In this document: one piece after another, positions 20,937 to 27,969 of the stretch | Layout of the letters: each line of letters opens with the position of its first letter | Numbering within the stretch: the first letter of the stretch is position 1 | NCBI RefSeq assembly: GCF_900142845.1 | Contig: NZ_FSRU01000002.1 | Coordinates: forward strand, 2,480,001 to 2,544,000 | DNA from: Paraburkholderia phenazinium | GTDB lineage: Bacteria; Pseudomonadota; Gammaproteobacteria; Burkholderiales; Burkholderiaceae | Reading direction: 5' to 3' | DNA length: 64,000 nucleotides | Translations under genes and position numbers: made by a program | Notes under the pieces: generated by a model | Seen by the model: only the letters and a program-made list of their open reading frames with translations | What the model was told of the DNA's origin: nothing | The model's database searches: none

Positions 20937-22289
20937 CTAGCCCCGCACGAACCACGTCCGCTTCGCCGACATCAGCATCCCCCGATAGACGAGCCACGAC
21001 ACGCCAAAGCTCGCCGGTGCGGAGAACGACTGCGCCAACCCCGGCACATTCATCAGCACGAGGCCAGCGAACGCCCCCGCAAACCATGCCGTCAAACCGC
21101 CCGGGTTAAAAGCCGGCACGTGCGAGTCGCGGCACTCGATCTCACCGCCCAGCAGTTCGTCATAGCGGGTCGAGAGGATATGCGCGAGCGCCACGCCGAC
21201 CCACGCAACCACAAAGATCCCCTGATAAGCAAGCGCCTGCAGTATCTTCGAAAACACGTCGGCCATCATCAAGCCGTAGACGACCACCCCGACGACGAGT
21301 GCCCACACGAACTTCGGCGCGCGCAGCCCTGCCGCTTTCTGAAAGAAGGCCTGCATATTGATCGCCGCGAGATAGTAGTTCGCGGTATTGATGCGCGACT
21401 GCGTCACCCACACGAACAGCAAGCCCCAGATGCCCATCAGTTTGAGCAACGCGAGCACGACCGACACTTCGGAGAGCGCACCGAGCGACGGGATCGAGCT
21501 GACCAGATAGATGCCGACCGCGCCGTTCAAAAGGAACGTCACCAGATAGAACGGCATGCCGAAGTTGAAACGGCCGTGGTACGTCGCATCCTGTTTGCGG
21601 CCGAAGCGCGCATAGTCGAACGTGAACATCATCAGCACCCAGACGCCCATGTAGTAGACGAAGCAACTCCACCAGCCGTTGGCCGGCAGCGCGCCCTTGG
21701 GTCCGAAATCGAGCCACGCCGGGTTATAGCCGTATTCGTGCGTGGTCAGCACGACCGCCGCCACCAGCCCAAGCAGATAGAACGGCAGCAGCACGCCGTT
21801 GAACCTGTCGAGCCAGTGCTGCACGCTGCCGAACACGAGCGGCACGCTATAGCACACGACGATCAGCGCGGCCCACCGATAATCGAGCAGCGGAAACAGA
21901 CTGTGTGCCGCGACGGCTATCACCGAGCCTTCGAATACCGCGTAGTAAATCGCCGTGGCGAAAAAAATCAGCGTGGCGAGCGCCGCTCCGGCGCTGCCGA
22001 ACAGCACCCGCGAAAACAGCGCGACAGACAGCCCGGTGCGAATCGCGTAGCGGCTGATGACCGAGTTGACGAGCCCATATGACACCACCGACAACGCCAT
22101 CCCGATCAGCGCGTTGCGCGCACCGTAGGTGAGTGCGAGGGTCGCGCCCACGACGATATAGAACACCGCGCTGCAAACCGCCCACCACGCCATCGTGAGC
22201 GAAAACGCGGGCATCCGGGCGTTCTCCGGAATGGCGAGCGTGGATAGATCCAGCTCTCCTTCGGCTGCTTCCTGTGCCAGGTTGGCCAT
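20937..22289 (-). CDS. NCS1 family (purine-cytosine permease-like) transporter
   Basis: A 450-residue integral membrane protein with about 12 hydrophobic segments. The N-terminal W-W-A-V-C-S-A-V-F-Y region and the Y-G-A-R-N-A-L-I-G motif match cytosine/allantoin/hydantoin-type NCS1 permeases, which are sodium or proton symporters of nucleobase-related rings. The start follows a strong GAGGAG. It is the last gene of the pxpA-to-pxpC operon, 121 bases after pxpC. It may bring in the substrate of the biotin-dependent enzyme encoded upstream; the substrate cannot be read from sequence. Confidence 0.82.
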   Translation of the reverse strand: MANLAQEAAEGELDLSTLAIPENARMPAFSLTMAWWAVCSAVFYIVVGATLALTYGARNALIGMALSVVSYGLVNSVISRYAIRTGLSVALFSRVLFGSAGAALATLIFFATAIYYAVFEGSVIAVAAHSLFPLLDYRWAALIVVCYSVPLVFGSVQHWLDRFNGVLLPFYLLGLVAAVVLTTHEYGYNPAWLDFGPKGALPANGWWSCFVYYMGVWVLMMFTFDYARFGRKQDATYHGRFNFGMPFYLVTFLLNGAVGIYLVSSIPSLGALSEVSVVLALLKLMGIWGLLFVWVTQSRINTANYYLAAINMQAFFQKAAGLRAPKFVWALVVGVVVYGLMMADVFSKILQALAYQGIFVVAWVGVALAHILSTRYDELLGGEIECRDSHVPAFNPGGLTAWFAGAFAGLVLMNVPGLAQSFSAPASFGVSWLVYRGMLMSAKRTWFVRG

Positions 22290-22410
22290 GATCGTACTCC
22301 TCAGTACACCTATGAATTAGGAAATGGCGCCACCACACCGCATGCGGCACAGTGGCGACACGTGAATGACAACCGGTATTGCGAGAAACGGCGAACGTAC
22401 GACTCGCGCG

Positions 22411-23406
22411 CTAGCGCAGCAGCACCTCGCGCAGACGCGCAAGCCGCAATTGCGCGTCGCGTCGCGCGGCGAGCGCCTGCGCCATCGTGACCGGTACGAA
22501 GCGAGCCAGATGGTTGGGCTGCATTTGACCGATCACATCCATGTCGGCGCTGATCACCGTGCCGATGGTCGCGTAGCCGCCACCCGACACCGCATCCCGA
22601 TGCAGGATGATCGGCTCGAGGCCAGCCGGCACCTGGATGGACCCGATCGGATAGCAGGCGTCGACAATGTTCGAGGGATCCGCGCCGGCACCGAACGGCT
22701 GCTCGCGTTCGCGGAATGTGAGGGGACGTCCCTGCTTGTAGCGGTAGCCGATGCGATCTGCTTCGGGCGCAACCGCCCACGTGTCTTCAAAGAACGTACG
22801 GGCCGATTCGTCCGTCAGACGATGATGGTAGAGCCCCGGCAGCACGCGCAATTCCACCTCCCGCGCGAGCGGCACGCGCAAGGCATCGGGAAGTACCGCG
22901 CCTTCGCGTACCGGACCTCGTACACTGCCGACGCTCAGGCTGTCGCCCTTCTGCAGACGCCGTCCCTCAAGGCCGCCAATCGCACCCAGTGTGTACGTCG
23001 AGCGACTGCCCAGCACGACCGGCACATCGATCCCGCCCGCCACCGCAAGGTACGCTCGGGCACCGCCTTTCACGTAGTCGAACGTCAGCGTGCTGCCCGC
23101 CTTGATACGCAACGCCACATTGCATGCCTGCACCGCGCCGTCGATCTTCGGCGTCATCTCGGCGCCGGTCACCGCGATTAACGTCTCCACGTTGAACAGC
23201 AGTTGCGGTCCGAGCAGCGTGCACTCCAGCACCGCCGTCTCCTCGGCATTGCCGACCAGCAGATTGGCCGCCCGCAGCGCGTATTGATCGAGCGCGCCTG
23301 AGGGAGGAATGCCGACGTGGTAATACCCTTGCCGGCCGGTATCCTGCACCGAGGTAGCCAGACCGGGCTTGACCACCTCGATCGCCTTGAGCAAGTCAGT
23401 TAGCAT
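22411..23406 (-). CDS. pxpC: KipA/PxpC-type biotin-dependent carboxyltransferase subunit
   Basis: 331 residues, the AHS2/KipA domain. Signature V-Q-D-T-G-R-Q-G-Y-Y-H-V-G-I-P-x-S-G-A-L-D-Q-Y-A near residues 20-43, then L-V-G-N-x-E-x-x-A-V-L-E-C-T and G-G-I-D-V-P-V-V-L-G-S-R-S-T-Y. The C-terminal G-G-Y-A-T-I-G-T-V-I-S-A-D segment is also typical. In urea carboxylase this domain with the KipI domain forms the carboxyltransferase; in PxpABC it is part of ATP-dependent 5-oxoprolinase. The start at 23406 overlaps pxpB by 11 bases and has GGAGG upstream. The adjacent biotin carboxylase and carrier genes favour a biotin-dependent role. Confidence 0.87.
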   Translation of the reverse strand: MLTDLLKAIEVVKPGLATSVQDTGRQGYYHVGIPPSGALDQYALRAANLLVGNAEETAVLECTLLGPQLLFNVETLIAVTGAEMTPKIDGAVQACNVALRIKAGSTLTFDYVKGGARAYLAVAGGIDVPVVLGSRSTYTLGAIGGLEGRRLQKGDSLSVGSVRGPVREGAVLPDALRVPLAREVELRVLPGLYHHRLTDESARTFFEDTWAVAPEADRIGYRYKQGRPLTFREREQPFGAGADPSNIVDACYPIGSIQVPAGLEPIILHRDAVSGGGYATIGTVISADMDVIGQMQPNHLARFVPVTMAQALAARRDAQLRLARLREVLLR

Positions 23407-24271
23407 CGAGCACCTCCACCAGTGAGCGGTTGTACGCGTCAGGATCACGCATGAAAGCGTCTAGCGAAAAATTCACGGGCCGCACGCGCAACGAAAACGT
23501 GCCGGCCTCGACTTCGGCGAGCGCCTTGTCGTAGGTGTCGCGGTCGATCGGCTTGAACTTCACGATATCGCCGGGCCTGAAAAACACCATGAAGTCACGC
23601 AGATAGTCGAGACGCTGTGCCGGATCGAAGATCGGCGCAGGCGTCACGCCGAACATCTGATAGCCGCCCGCACCCCGCACCGAGTAGATACAGCCGAAGC
23701 AGCCGCCGTGACCGACCGTCAGCTTCGGCGTATCGGTGCGCGGCCGCAGGTACTTGGGCACCTGCAAGTGCCGCTTGCGTTCGACCATCTGGAACATGAA
23801 CGGCAGACCCGCCACGAAGCCGACCATCGAGACAAACCACGGCGACCCGGCGTGCGCAGCGATGAAGGCATCCACGTCACCGTATCCGTTGATACGGGCG
23901 GCGTATTGCAGATCGGTCGAGTCGGGATCCTGGTGGCGTTCGCGAAAGCGCATCAGCGTTTCGTGGGTCCACGGGTCGTTGTAGAGCACCGGCACTTCGA
24001 CGATGCGCGTCGCGATGTTCAGATCGGCGGCGCCGACCTCCGCCTCGATCGTCTGGAGCAGCGCAAGCAGTACATCAGGCGCGATGATGTCCGGGTTGTA
24101 GCGCACCTGATATGACGCGTTCGCCGGACAGATCTCGGTGACGCCCGCCACTTTGCGGCGTTGCAGTTCGCGCGTGATCGCCGTCCCCTTGAAGAACGCA
24201 TCGAGCGACATGTCCTCGCTGATCTCGACGAAGATGAATTCATCGCCACCGAACGTGTACCGAATCGTCAT
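23396..24271 (-). CDS. pxpB: KipI/PxpB-type carboxyltransferase subunit (long form)
   Basis: 291 residues, longer than typical PxpB/KipI proteins (about 220-240). The AHS1 signature F-V-A-G-L-P-F-M-F and P-R-x-x-T-P-K-x-x-V-G-H-G-G-x-F-G-C-I-Y-S is in the middle, followed by G-G-Y-Q-M-F-G-V-T-P-A-P-I-F-D. The extra length sits mainly after the F-R-P-G-D-I-V-K-F segment, as in the urea-carboxylase version of the domain. The ATG overlaps the biotin carboxylase stop in an ATGA, so the two are coupled. Product unknown; see the operon finding. Confidence 0.85.
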   Translation of the reverse strand: MTIRYTFGGDEFIFVEISEDMSLDAFFKGTAITRELQRRKVAGVTEICPANASYQVRYNPDIIAPDVLLALLQTIEAEVGAADLNIATRIVEVPVLYNDPWTHETLMRFRERHQDPDSTDLQYAARINGYGDVDAFIAAHAGSPWFVSMVGFVAGLPFMFQMVERKRHLQVPKYLRPRTDTPKLTVGHGGCFGCIYSVRGAGGYQMFGVTPAPIFDPAQRLDYLRDFMVFFRPGDIVKFKPIDRDTYDKALAEVEAGTFSLRVRPVNFSLDAFMRDPDAYNRSLVEVLDAN

Positions 24272-25704
24272 GCTGCCTCCGCGGATAGTTGGGCGCGCCA
24301 GCCGGTCATCCACGCCTCGAGATAGTTGGTGTGATAGCGGCCGGCGCGCACGTCCTCATCGGACAGCAGCGCGCGGTGTAGCAATGCCGTCGTTTTCACG
24401 CCGCCAATGCGCAACTCGCCCAACGCCCGCTCGAGTCGCGCCAGCGCCGCGGGCCGGCTCTCGTCGGACACGATCAGTTTGGCAAGCAGGGAATCGTAGA
24501 ACGGCGGCACGGCGTACCCCTGATACAGCATCGAATCGATGCGCACACCTGGGCCGGTCGGCCACACGAGTTCGTCGATCCGCCCGGGATTCGGGCGGAA
24601 ATCCTGCTCGGGATCTTCCGCGTTGATCCGGCATTCGAGCGCGGCACCCCGCATCGTGATGTCACCCTGACGGAAACGCAACGGCTCCCCATCGGCAATG
24701 CGCAGCGTTTCCCGTACCAGGTCGACGCCTGTGATCGCCTCGGTGACCGGATGCTCGACCTGAATGCGCGTGTTCATTTCGATGAAATAAAACTCGCCGC
24801 GCGTATCGTCGAACAGGTATTCCAGCGTCCCCGCACTGCGATAGCCGACTTGCCGTGCCAGCCGCGTGGCGGATGCGCACAGCACCTCGCGCAATGCCGG
24901 GGTGAGCGACGGCGAAGGCGCTTCCTCGAGGATCTTCTGGCGGCGCCGCTGCAGCGAGCACTCGCGCTCGAACAGGTGAACCACGTCTTTGCCGTCGCCT
25001 AGCACCTGTACTTCGATATGCCGCGCACAGGCAATGAAGCGTTCCAGATACACGCCGCCATCGCCGAATGCGGCCTGCGCTTCGCGTTGCGCAAGCGGCA
25101 ACTCGGCGTCGAGCTGCGCGGCGTCGTGGGCGACGCGAATGCCCCGTCCACCGCCCCCGGCGGCCGCCTTGATCATCACCGGATAACCGATGCGAGCGGC
25201 AATCTCGCGTGCTTCACCGAGCGACAAAACAATGCCGTTACTGCCTGGCACGGTCGGCACATCGGCGCGCTGCGCCGTTTCGCGAGCGCGGGCCTTGTCG
25301 CCCATGGTCGCTATCACGGTTGACGAGGGTCCGACGAAGATCAGCCCTGACGCTTCGACCTGCGCCGCAAAGGCGGCGTTCTCCGACAGGAAGCCGTAGC
25401 CGGGGTGAATAGCGTCCGCGCCGCATTGCTTCGCTGCGGCCAGAATCGCCGCCGGATTCAGATAGCTCTTCACCGCGTGCGCCGGACCGATAGGCACGGC
25501 TTCGTCCGCCATGCGCGCCGCCAGACTGTCGCGGTCGGCATCGCTGACGGCGGCGACCGCGCGCATGCCCAACTCGTGCGCCGCGCGAATCACCCGCACT
25601 GCGATCTCGCCGCGGTTCGCCACCAGCACGGTGCGAATACGCTGCGGCCGATAGAAGCTTGTCGTGGAAGCGTTCGTGTCCAGCGGATTGCTTGCATTTG
25701 TCAC
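24268..25704 (-). CDS. Biotin carboxylase (AccC-like), dedicated to the PxpBC-type enzyme
   Basis: A 478-residue ATP-grasp enzyme that carboxylates biotin on a carrier protein using ATP and bicarbonate. N-terminal V-L-V-A-N-R-G-E-I-A-V-R, the H-P-G-Y-G-F-L-S-E-N motif, the glycine-rich A-A-A-G-G-G-G-R-G-I-R loop, E-C-S-L-Q-R-R-x-Q-K and the catalytic E-M-N-T-R-I-Q-V-E-H-P-V-T-E are all intact. About 20 non-conserved residues precede the domain. The GTG start lies one base after the BCCP stop. Housekeeping accBC genes are normally elsewhere, so this is a second, pathway-specific copy (inference). Confidence 0.92.
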   Translation of the reverse strand: MTNASNPLDTNASTTSFYRPQRIRTVLVANRGEIAVRVIRAAHELGMRAVAAVSDADRDSLAARMADEAVPIGPAHAVKSYLNPAAILAAAKQCGADAIHPGYGFLSENAAFAAQVEASGLIFVGPSSTVIATMGDKARARETAQRADVPTVPGSNGIVLSLGEAREIAARIGYPVMIKAAAGGGGRGIRVAHDAAQLDAELPLAQREAQAAFGDGGVYLERFIACARHIEVQVLGDGKDVVHLFERECSLQRRRQKILEEAPSPSLTPALREVLCASATRLARQVGYRSAGTLEYLFDDTRGEFYFIEMNTRIQVEHPVTEAITGVDLVRETLRIADGEPLRFRQGDITMRGAALECRINAEDPEQDFRPNPGRIDELVWPTGPGVRIDSMLYQGYAVPPFYDSLLAKLIVSDESRPAALARLERALGELRIGGVKTTALLHRALLSDEDVRAGRYHTNYLEAWMTGWRAQLSAEAA

Positions 25705-25705
25705 G

Positions 25706-25948
25706 TTAGGCCTCGACTCGCATCAGAACCTGCCCGGCATCCACCGGCTCGCCGTCTTCGACGAGAATCTCGGTGACTTGTCCGCTCACAGTCGTTTCGA
25801 CGTCGCTGAACTGCTTCATCACCTCCACCAGTCCTACCACGGTGCCGTCTGTAACCGACGCGCCTACTTCGACGTACGGTGCCGCATCCGGCGATGCCCG
25901 CCGGTAAAAGGTGCCCGGCAAGGGACTGACGATGTCGTGTTGTGCCAT
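25706..25948 (-). CDS. Free-standing biotin carboxyl carrier protein (short)
   Basis: 80 residues: only the biotinyl domain, without the proline/alanine-rich N-terminal arm of acetyl-CoA carboxylase AccB (about 150 residues). The biotin site is V-E-V-M-K with Lys45, where M-K is kept but the first residues differ from the common A-M-K-M. S-P-L-P-G-T-F-Y and E-x-G-x-x-V are also typical. The start follows GAGGAG. It lies between pxpA and the biotin carboxylase, so it is the likely carrier for this enzyme complex. Confidence 0.9.
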   Translation of the reverse strand: MAQHDIVSPLPGTFYRRASPDAAPYVEVGASVTDGTVVGLVEVMKQFSDVETTVSGQVTEILVEDGEPVDAGQVLMRVEA

Positions 25949-26000
25949 CTGTGTGCTCCTCAAGTCTGATTTGATGCTGATACGGCTCTGATGATGGGTG

Positions 26001-26780
26001 TCAGTGGACCCGTGCAGGCAGCGGCGCGGCGACGCGGATGTCGTGGCGCGTCAGCAGCGCCCGCGTGGACTCGACCAGCTTGAGCGCACCGGGCGTATCG
26101 CTGTGGATGCATACCGAGTCGAAGTCGATCGCGATGTCGTCGCCGTCGACCGTCGCGACCCGTCCTTCGACACAGGCGCGCAGCACCTTCGCCGCGACCT
26201 GGTCCGCGTCGAGCCGTCCGACCCGCCGCGTAAAAACGATCGAGCCGCTGCGGTCGTAATCGCGGTCGGCGTAGAACTCGCGAATCACCGGCTGGCCGAG
26301 TTCGCGCGCGATCCGGTAGGTGACCGACGCTTCCATGCAATACAGGAGAAGCGTCGGATCGAGCCTCTGCAGCGTTTCGATCAGCAGGCGCGACAGGTCT
26401 TCGTCCCGCGCGGCCAGCATGTAGAGCGCGCCGTGCGGCTTCACATGCTGCACGCTGACGTTGTAGAGCCGCGCGAATTCCCGCAACGCGCCAAGCTGGA
26501 AAATGATGTCGTTGACGAGCGCCTGCGGCGACTCGGTGATCGTGCGGCGCCCGAACCCCACCAGATCGCGAAACCCCGGATGCGCGCCGACCCCGACGCC
26601 CGCCTGCTTCGCGAGCTGCACGGTGCGCGCCATGATGTTGGGGTCACCCGCGTGAAAGCCGGTCGCAATGTTCGCCGAACTGATGAACGGCATGATGTCT
26701 TCATCGACGCCGTCGCCGATCTGCCATGCGCCAAAGCCTTCGCCCATGTCGGAATTCAAATCGACGCTGTGCTTCTTCAT
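26001..26780 (-). CDS. pxpA: LamB/YcsF family protein, PxpA-like
   Basis: 259 residues. Motifs [41 protein letters not shown] and [10 protein letters not shown] define the family. In PxpABC this subunit hydrolyses the ring of phosphorylated 5-oxoproline. Two positions differ from the pattern I know: A-T-G-F-H rather than A-C-G-F-H, and R-V-G-R-L-D in place of the usual P-G-A-x-I segment. It is the first gene of the operon, 52 bases before the carrier gene and divergent from the LysR gene. Confidence 0.87.
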
Positions 26781-26898
26781 GCTGAATGTCTCCGTGGATC
26801 AGCCGCCTCAGTGCGTGAGAGATGCACATCCGGCCGGGTGAGGGAAACATTAACTGCCCGTCGCTCGCCAAAATAGTTCTATTTTTATATGGCACGTT

Positions 26899-26913
26899 AT
26901 CTGTTTTTCAGAT
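26899..26913. promoter_or_regulatory. T-N11-A dyad, candidate LysR operator
   Basis: ATCTG-TTTTT-CAGAT is a perfect dyad containing T-N11-A, the core pattern bound by LysR-type regulators. It sits in the 268-base divergent region 26781-27048 between pxpA and the LysR gene, 119 bases from the pxpA start. Confidence 0.45.
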
Positions 26914-27048
26914 GTCCTCGCGATCGGGCCGATTCGCCCAGGCCTGTTCGTCAGGACATTCAGCCCGACACGATAATCGGAACCGGCGCCGGTTTTTGGC
27001 GAAGATAAGATACTGCTTGATGCAATATCCTTTTTTCAGGCGGACGGT

Positions 27049-27969
27049 ATGGCCTTGACCCTACGGCAACTCAAATATTTCGTGGCTACTGCCGAACTCG
27101 GCCAGATCTCGCAAGCCGCCATTCAACTGACTATTTCGCAGTCCGCCGTCACTAACGCGATCAAGGAACTCGAAGACAGCCTGGGCACGCAGTTGTTCTT
27201 GCGCACCGCCGCCGGCGTCACCTTGACCACCACCGGCCGGCGCTTCCTCAACCAGGCGTATACGATCCTGTCGTCGGTCGATGAAGCAATGCGCATTCCG
27301 AACCTCGAGAGCACGCTCACCGGGACCCTCGCCATCGCCGCGAGCTATACCGTACTGGGCTATTTCTTGCCGCATCATCTGCAGCGCCTGAATACGCTGT
27401 ATCCGCGCCTGACGATTCAACTGCACGAATTGAACCGCGAATCGATCGAGGAGGGTTTGATCGCCGGTCGCTACGACATGGCGGTACTGCTCACGTCGAA
27501 CGTCGCGAACCCGGAGTTGATGCTGGAACCGGTCATCCATTCGGTTCGCAGGCTCTGGCTGTGCGCGCAACATCCTTTACTGAAGCGCGAGGTTGTCACG
27601 CTCGCCGATGTCGCCGCCGAACCCTTCGTCATGCTAACGGTTGACGAAGCGGCCTATACCGCGCTGCGCTACTGGAACGAGACGCCCTACCGGCCGAACG
27701 TGAAACTGCGCACCTCGTCTGTGGAAGCGGTGCGCAGCATGGTGGCGAACGGCAGCGGTGTGGCGATTCTGTCCGACATGGTGTATCGCCCCTGGTCGCT
27801 CGAAGGACGGCGGATCGAGACCATGCAGTTGCGCGATGCGGTGCCGCCGATGAGCGTCGGTCTGGCCTGGCGCAGAAACACAGAGTTGAGCCCCGGGATG
27901 CATGCCGTGCGTGAATACTTCCGGCACACTTTCATGGAACCACGGGCATTGAGTGCCGGCAACCTGTGA
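27049..27969 (+). CDS. LysR family regulator of the pxp/biotin carboxylase operon
   Basis: 306 residues. A classic N-terminal winged helix-turn-helix (L-R-Q-L-K-Y-F-V-A-T-A-E-L-G-Q-I-S-Q-A-A then S-Q-S-A-V-T-N-A-I-K-E-L-E) precedes the LysR substrate-binding domain with L-I-A-G-R-Y-D-M-A-V-L-L and M-V-A-N-G-S-G-V-A-I-L-S. It is divergent from pxpA, the usual layout for a LysR protein and its target, so I infer it controls the six-gene operon with its substrate or product as co-inducer. Confidence 0.9.
   Translation: MALTLRQLKYFVATAELGQISQAAIQLTISQSAVTNAIKELEDSLGTQLFLRTAAGVTLTTTGRRFLNQAYTILSSVDEAMRIPNLESTLTGTLAIAASYTVLGYFLPHHLQRLNTLYPRLTIQLHELNRESIEEGLIAGRYDMAVLLTSNVANPELMLEPVIHSVRRLWLCAQHPLLKREVVTLADVAAEPFVMLTVDEAAYTALRYWNETPYRPNVKLRTSSVEAVRSMVANGSGVAILSDMVYRPWSLEGRRIETMQLRDAVPPMSVGLAWRRNTELSPGMHAVREYFRHTFMEPRALSAGNL

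Follow-up and report, generated by a model that had tools for sequence, protein, structure and literature searches.

A urea carboxylase relative divided among separate chains and paired with PxpA in Paraburkholderia phenazinium, a candidate biotin-dependent cyclic-amide hydrolase

Introduction

Urea carboxylase (TIGR02712; Kluyveromyces lactis, 3VA7, 5I8I) unites biotin carboxylase (BC), biotin carrier and the carboxyltransferase (CT) parts A/B and C/D in one chain, and Lys1605 of the K. lactis urea amidolyase (KlUA) has been described as the most likely essential CT general base, with a K-to-A change at this residue severely inhibiting the enzyme (PMC5770610). Here, we describe an operon in a 64,000-nucleotide stretch (hereafter the window; contig C2, NZ_FSRU01000002.1, positions 2480001-2544000) of the 8.5-Mb, three-contig genome of Paraburkholderia phenazinium that encodes the same parts, shares the general-base Lys and falls on the same side of the CT-C/D tree, but differs from urea carboxylase in having four separate chains, PxpA rather than allophanate hydrolase as partner, and a CT-C/D of 28-29% identity. 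On the minus strand from 26780 to 20937, it comprises PxpA, biotin carrier, BC, a PxpB-like CT subunit (CT-C/D), a PxpC-like CT subunit (CT-A/B), and an NCS1-like permease, with a LysR gene divergent from it. The gene set seems to encode a urea carboxylase relative that is divided among several chains and paired with PxpA, and we lean, with a little more than even confidence, toward reading it as a split, biotin-dependent, N-carboxylating hydrolase of cyclic amides, the substrate of which would be a lactam, favorably one of the gamma-aminobutyric acid (GABA) type.

Several other described systems resemble parts of this locus. Escherichia coli PxpABC (ybgJKL) likewise has PxpA and adjacent CT-fold PxpB and PxpC, but in its PxpB Arg takes the place of the Lys, and neither BC nor carrier lies alongside; PxpBC is assumed, according to PMC13274462, to phosphorylate 5-oxoproline. 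In 2011, bacteria and archaea were reported in which each half of the urea carboxylase CT has a gene of its own, with their function left unknown and a possible pairing with other biotin carboxylases raised, and the accessible text of that report mentions neither PxpA nor a lactam substrate (PMC3199775). The pxpB operon of Staphylococcus aureus is reported to have six genes, including pxpA, pxpB, pxpC, accB, and accC, although these are named 5-oxoprolinase and acetyl-CoA carboxylase, and the likeness drawn here is one of gene names (PMC11315280). The mum operon of Acinetobacter baumannii is described as encoding a member of the biotin carboxylase family and a homologue of "allophanate hydrolase" beside a transporter, but that transporter is of the NRAMP type, the operon was read as urea carboxylase, and we liken the two by description, not gene by gene (PMC5050338). 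The urea carboxylase reading of mum rests on mumC (PMC5050338), and the mum operon may itself be a candidate for an enzyme of the lactam-type kind. Caprolactamase (CapAB/HyuAB), as described, needs ATP and bicarbonate for lactam opening and has a separate hydrolytic subunit; it differs in its actin-like ATPase fold and in using no biotin, its authors report no similarity to PxpABC, and the three mechanisms they propose include lactam carboxylation (PMC8453981). Although unrelated in sequence, caprolactamase may serve by analogy as a precedent for lactam carboxylation. A biotin-dependent lactam reaction for this gene set was not found in the literature, as judged mostly by titles and abstract openings and with subscription papers thinly covered.

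Carboxyltransferase type

Both CT subunits score higher with urea carboxylase models than with those for 5-oxoprolinase. The PxpB-like subunit reached 110.3 bits with the urea_carbox model and 68.2 with PxpB TIGR00370, missing the cut-off of the latter (145.55), and the PxpC-like subunit reached 252.6 bits with urea_carbox and 220.9 with PxpC_5OPro (NF045499), again missing the latter's cut-off (500). With TIGR02712, which describes one chain of ~1200 aa, the pieces in the window gave 527.1, 251.9, 108.5, and 29.9 bits, all below the whole-protein cut-off of 1303.85.

The position of KlUA Lys1605 is also Lys in the CT-C/D of the window, as it is in four bacterial urea carboxylases and, among the best 80 loci listed (see below), in 64 of 66 BC-linked and all 14 BC-less loci; the two BC-linked exceptions show one gap and one Leu, for which misread frames are suspected. 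Arg occupies this position in E. coli PxpB, as it does in the three further PxpB-like genes that this genome carries. Among 60 sampled genomes, 16 had any CT, with 26 CT places between them: 10 read Lys (8 urea carboxylases and 2 split enzymes), 14 read Arg, and 2 more read RR from blast segments.

In a CT-C/D tree of 49 rows, 17 Arg-type and 32 Lys-type rows are split at 100/100, and the 21 rows of split Lys-type proteins and the 10 rows of urea carboxylases each form one side of a 100/99 branch; several long branches were flagged by the tree tool, the tree excludes L204 and also L011-L014, which duplicate reference or own rows, and L190, L197, and L198 were entered as blast segments on account of misread frames. 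By its sequence, CT-C/D groups with urea carboxylases and apart from classical PxpB. An AlphaFold model of CT-C/D, with a mean predicted local distance difference test score of 72.6 and values <50 at residues 191-218 beside the Lys, was not used as evidence. A separate biotin-linked kind was seen in L193, L200, L202, and L207, which form an Arg-type PxpB clade and have a BC gene nearby.

Distribution of the gene set

The 96 loci compared comprise the best 80 of at least 574 PxpB-subunit relatives in species genomes and 16 sampled-genome stretches, two sets that may overlap. The five core genes, PxpA-carrier-BC-PxpB-PxpC, lie in the same order and on the same strand within 6 kb in 76 of these loci and, because order and strand are shared so widely, the arrangement is not due to chance. 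Carrier and BC are absent from 16 loci (14 of them named Pseudomonas), PxpA and carrier from three at a contig end, and a single locus, that of the relative at 37% identity, has a deviating gene order. PxpA is present in 93 loci, the contig-end cuts being the remaining three.

Among the best 80 listed, the closest named relative is a Paraburkholderia metagenome-assembled genome (MAG; 93% in PxpB). A sample of 398 Pseudomonadota genomes held 16 PxpB relatives (own included) at ≥60% identity and one at 37%; the next four, at 28-29%, lie in frames of 1194-1416 aa, as long as a complete urea carboxylase. The relatives extend over Pseudomonadota, Actinomycetota, and haloarchaea, and 89 plasmid records have them at E ≤ 1e-40, the carriers including rhizobia, Shinella, the haloarchaea Haladaptatus and Natribaculum, Rubrobacter, and Rhodococcus RHA1. 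At E ≤ 0.001, the PxpB-like subunit is matched by 7650 of 7999 scored candidates (the best 120 listed), a figure for all PxpB-like matches taken together. Database names given to these genes are 5-oxoprolinase and acetyl-CoA carboxylase.

Biotin carboxylase, carrier, and PxpA

Thirteen positions of E. coli BC, which we take to be catalytic in their presumed roles, were compared, and 12 of them (K116, K159, H209, Q233, K238, E276, E288, N290, R292, Q294, E296, and R338) are conserved both in the window and in all readable loci. The carrier Lys is kept in all 77 loci that have a carrier, with the motif EVMKQF in 62 of 80 carrier rows. In the window, this Lys lies in the (A/V)MK context of biotinyl residues. 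A biotin synthase gene lies beside the cluster in 15 of the 96 loci, and its placement is of two kinds: ten Burkholderia loci have it upstream, and five others have it downstream of the permease, one of these (L026) as a fragment of 240 bases. It also lies beside the cluster on an Acidiphilium plasmid; these neighbors are consistent with a demand for biotin. PxpA passed the subfamily model NF003814, missed the cut-offs of the PxpA equivalog models, and keeps the Asp, His, Lys, and Glu positions common with E. coli PxpA, in a comparison from which 5 of 82 frames (>420 aa) were left out.

The two BC-less rows in the tree group with a BC-linked Pseudomonas inside an otherwise BC-linked set and, because of this nesting, BC and carrier were probably lost secondarily in BC-less Pseudomonas. 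A search for BC covered 12 of the 14 BC-less loci of the best 80 (L087 and L089 were left out, as were L154 and L155 of the sampled genomes); the best scores in these genomes were 600-621 bits against a cut-off of 686, while two BC-linked genomes gave 834-838. The BC-less loci (L082-L089, L091, L092, L094-L097, L154, and L155) have the same LysR, operator, PxpA, PxpB, and PxpC, with no NCS1 match, and the CT Lys is kept in all 14 read. Long open frames in several Variovorax loci raised the possibility of a BC-PxpB gene fusion, which was rejected as the one frame compared with Pfam, that of 806 aa in L057, matched only CT_C_D.

Regulator, importers, and neighboring genes

The pattern ATC-N9-GA[TA] occurs in 72 of 81 LysR-PxpA intergenic regions, against a letter-shuffle mean of 7.0 of 81. 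This count covers LysR-PxpA spacings of 60-400 bases (81, window included, of 97), the pattern was picked after viewing the alignment, and kinship among the sequences inflates it. By type, the pattern was found in 39 of 42 NCS1 loci, 15 of 18 TorT-type loci, all 15 BC-less loci, and 3 of 6 others. One LysR and one operator across differing transporters argues for one inducer, which suggests that a single compound induces the NCS1, ATP-binding cassette (ABC) importer, and BC-less variants.

The permease of the window scored 23.0 bits with PF02133 (gathering threshold 23.5), whereas 14 of 19 aligned homologues matched at E ≤ 0.01 (best 3.9e-8), and it had no meaningful match among solved structures. 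It is the probable importer and would carry the substrate of the operon. Across the 96 loci, an NCS1-like permease is present in 44, a TorT-like ABC importer in 26, neither within the stretch in 26, and both in 0.

Next to the cluster in the loci of Variovorax and Rhodoferax comes a TorT-like ABC importer, and after it genes for GABA transaminase and succinate-semialdehyde dehydrogenase (SSADH). GABA transaminase (>50% identity to that of L054) is present in 8 of the 96 loci, one being a deltaproteobacterial MAG, with a ninth (L167) found using another query; aminotransferase matches of 32-33% in Burkholderia loci and L049 were not counted. SSADH is present in six. The transaminase/SSADH pair of L054 passes TIGR00700 and TIGR01780, and a transposase lies between the two genes in L068. 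HyuA-like genes, of a lactam- and hydantoin-opening family, lie near the cluster in four loci, three of which also have HyuB. The cluster is accompanied in Diaphorobacter by a xanthine-dehydrogenase-type (molybdenum-hydroxylase) gene set, and in Haladaptatus by an amidase and an aminotransferase. Overall, neighboring genes in relatives favor a cyclic amide that gives an omega-amino acid, and the GABA transaminase/SSADH genes make 2-pyrrolidinone or a similar lactam the favored substrate.

A first-pass annotation of this DNA, made from the sequence alone, had proposed a multi-subunit, urea-carboxylase-like biotin enzyme whose substrate would be cyclic or an amide, PxpA serving as hydrolase of the carboxylated ring. 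The type of enzyme is supported by the CT-C/D grouping, the catalytic Lys, 12 of 13 BC positions, and the carrier Lys, and the type of substrate by the GABA transaminase/SSADH, HyuAB, and molybdenum-hydroxylase neighbors in some relatives, which fit cyclic amides. Its NCS1 permease is here called NCS1-like, the window protein being just under the threshold.

On rhizobial plasmids (L179, L180, L181, and L189), a conserved set of genes adjoins the cluster and encodes GntR, an ABC importer, two short-chain dehydrogenases/reductases (SDRs), a 293-aa deacetylase-family protein, a CobW-like GTPase, and a small protein. The 293-aa protein was compared as a possible cyclic-imide hydrolase: its best solved match (526 bits) was 3qbu/4ly4, named uncharacterized protein/peptidoglycan deacetylase, and its sole NCBIfam match was allantoinase PuuE, below cut-off. 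On pRHL2 of Rhodococcus jostii RHA1 (L187 1-6716), microcompartment genes, partly tandem-repeated, an aminotransferase, and an aldehyde dehydrogenase lie near the CT genes.

Proposed mechanism and alternatives

From the parts and residues observed, we infer the following reactions and their order. The importer would take up a small lactam-type compound, and BC, which keeps its residues and is assigned activity from its family, would spend ATP in carboxylating the biotin of the 80-aa carrier with bicarbonate. The CT subunits would move the carboxyl to the ring nitrogen with the Lys as general base, like urea carboxylase on urea, a reaction proposed here from the Lys and the kinship found in the sequence. 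PxpA would hydrolyze the activated ring amide of the N-carboxy-lactam to an N-carboxy-amino acid, which would lose CO2, for a net conversion of lactam, ATP, and H2O to amino acid, ADP, and Pi. In relatives with GABA transaminase and SSADH, the reaction would yield GABA or a close homologue, and the divergent LysR protein would sense substrate or product.

Several observations weigh against such a biotin-dependent lactam hydrolase. Arg stands at the remaining BC position, H236 of E. coli, in the window as well as in each of the 79 readable loci, and His in a second cluster of the genome (see below). The 16 loci without BC and carrier retain PxpABC, and no PRK12833-type BC over cut-off was found in 12 of 12 BC-less Pseudomonas genomes searched (completeness not given); the CT of these loci may either do without biotin or draw on AccB/AccC. 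Nor is BC linkage specific to Lys-type CT, as BC lies within ~1.5 kb at 5 of 16 Arg-type PxpB places, including the second cluster of this genome. To these are added the 26 loci with neither importer type and the different cluster neighbors in rhizobia; GABA transaminase/SSADH, moreover, do not occur outside Variovorax, Rhodoferax, and isolated loci elsewhere, nor beside the window operon. Lastly, the unlinked allophanate hydrolase of the genome makes urea a possible substrate by gene content, and a published mutant study assigns a comparable operon to urea carboxylase (PMC5050338).

A true split urea carboxylase would convert urea to allophanate, which the unlinked allophanate hydrolase would degrade, with PxpA incidental or acting elsewhere. 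The first-pass annotation had argued against urea from a lack of allophanate hydrolase; none is linked to the operon in the window, but the sole one over cut-off in the genome (761.6 bits vs 511) lies on another contig, so that argument is weak. The CT kinship and Lys are as in urea carboxylase, the genome has this allophanate hydrolase and no urea carboxylase (TIGR02712) over cut-off, and in A. baumannii mumC was reported necessary for urea use, although the mumH mutant is reported to have kept urea use as sole nitrogen source (PMC5050338). We nonetheless consider urea improbable as the substrate, given that PxpA is found in 93 of 96 loci and is first in the operon in 76, that allophanate hydrolase is unlinked here, that identity to full urea carboxylases is only 28-29% with a wide identity gap and a long separating branch, and that the neighbors of some relatives point to amides yielding amino acids. 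Still a little less probable is a biotin-independent 5-oxoprolinase (PxpABC) with an acetyl-CoA-carboxylase-type BC and carrier co-transcribed for another purpose. The presence of all of the PxpA, PxpB, and PxpC domains, the 16 loci that keep PxpABC without BC and carrier, and the database names agree with it, but PxpB and PxpC fall below the curated 5-oxoprolinase cut-offs, the CT has Lys, not Arg, and urea-carboxylase kinship, the genome already has classical PxpABC and separate accBC, and biotin synthase genes are among the neighbors. An equally unlikely reading to that of urea keeps the biotin carboxylase but gives it another acceptor (N-heterocycle, imide, acyclic amide, or carbon acid), the product of which PxpA would open or deacylate. 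This reading fits the genes of molybdenum-hydroxylase type that Diaphorobacter and Rubrobacter have near the cluster, the amidase genes of Haladaptatus and Rubrobacter, the rhizobial SDRs and deacetylase-family protein, and the several transporter types, whereas a single LysR operator over the transporter types suggests one ligand, and GABA transaminase/SSADH point to an omega-amino acid.

If the operon does encode an N-carboxylating lactam hydrolase, biotin carboxylation would transiently activate an amide so that it can be hydrolyzed, and biotin would have a new role, in the opening of a ring amide for use as food. To our knowledge, such activation is known only for urea and guanidine. This function would also explain the co-travel of PxpA, BC, and carrier, would apply to many genes now named otherwise, and could supply possible enzymes for lactam solvents and nylon monomers, while the shift of the CT fold between carboxyl transfer (Lys) and presumed 5-oxoproline phosphorylation (Arg) becomes testable. 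A broader proposal, which we hold tentatively and with somewhat less than even confidence, is that of a widespread new class of ATP-dependent lactam hydrolases based on biotin N-carboxylation, in which the carboxyl group is a removable handle, with urea-carboxylase chemistry applied to lactams, PxpA is a dedicated N-carboxy-lactam hydrolase, and BC-less Pseudomonas borrow the fatty-acid AccB/AccC; on the same tentative footing, the class would be hidden under the names 5-oxoprolinase, acetyl-CoA carboxylase, allophanate hydrolase, and urea carboxylase.

Gene layout and other related genes in the genome

Table 1. Coordinates of the operon, its regulator, and notable sites (window positions)
Feature	Position	Strand	Details
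NCS1-like permease	20937..22289	-	450 aa; PF02133 23.0 bits; final gene of the presumed operon
CT subunit A/B (PxpC/KipA-like, urea-carboxylase-type)	22411..23406	-	331 aa; ATG 23406; PF02626 296.8 bits
CT subunit C/D (PxpB/KipI-like, urea-carboxylase-type)	23396..24271	-	291 aa; ATG 24271
General-base Lys codon of CT-C/D	23753-23755	-	
Biotin carboxylase subunit (PRK12833 family)	24268..25704	-	478 aa; GTG start; NF009471 885.5 bits, cut-off 686
Biotin carboxyl carrier	25706..25948	-	80 aa; motif EVMKQF; NF005457 135.5 bits, cut-off 87
Biotinyl Lys codon of carrier	25814-25816	-	
PxpA (LamB/YcsF) hydrolase subunit	26001..26780	-	259 aa; NF003814 294.1 bits, cut-off 226
Second palindrome AAAATAGTTCTATTTT	26870..26885	.	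Divergent promoter region; similar stretch in the alignment of close relatives
Probable LysR operator ATCTGTTTTTCAGAT, T-N11-A palindrome	26899..26913	.	ATC-N9-GA[TA] pattern
LysR-type regulator, divergent	27049..27969	+	306 aa; homologue in 89/96 loci

The genome has further related genes, among them a second biotin-linked PxpABC cluster and a classical PxpABC, both of which, like the relatives without BC and carrier, were unforeseen by the first annotation. The second cluster (L009 7575-12600; G000:C1:3228574-3233599) encodes a long AccB-like carrier (EAMKMF), an AccC-like BC, an Arg-type PxpB, PxpC, and PxpA, and adjoins a NAC-like LysR gene and a GlnP-type ABC permease. A separate accBC is also present. 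Another Arg-type PxpB/PxpC-like pair, with no PxpA match or BC close by, was observed at L010 (G000:C1:3541911-3543502).

Within the window, the seven genes and their strands were confirmed as annotated, as were the overlap of the BC stop with the PxpB ATG (24268-24271), the PxpB/PxpC overlap (23396-23406), and the single base (25705) separating carrier from BC. The permease gene lies 121 bp downstream of PxpC and has its own Shine-Dalgarno-like GAGGAG. For the carrier, the most likely start is ATG 25948, with GAGGAG 7 bases upstream, and for PxpB and PxpC it is the ATG given in Table 1; the longer open reading frames of these three genes are in-frame extensions upstream.

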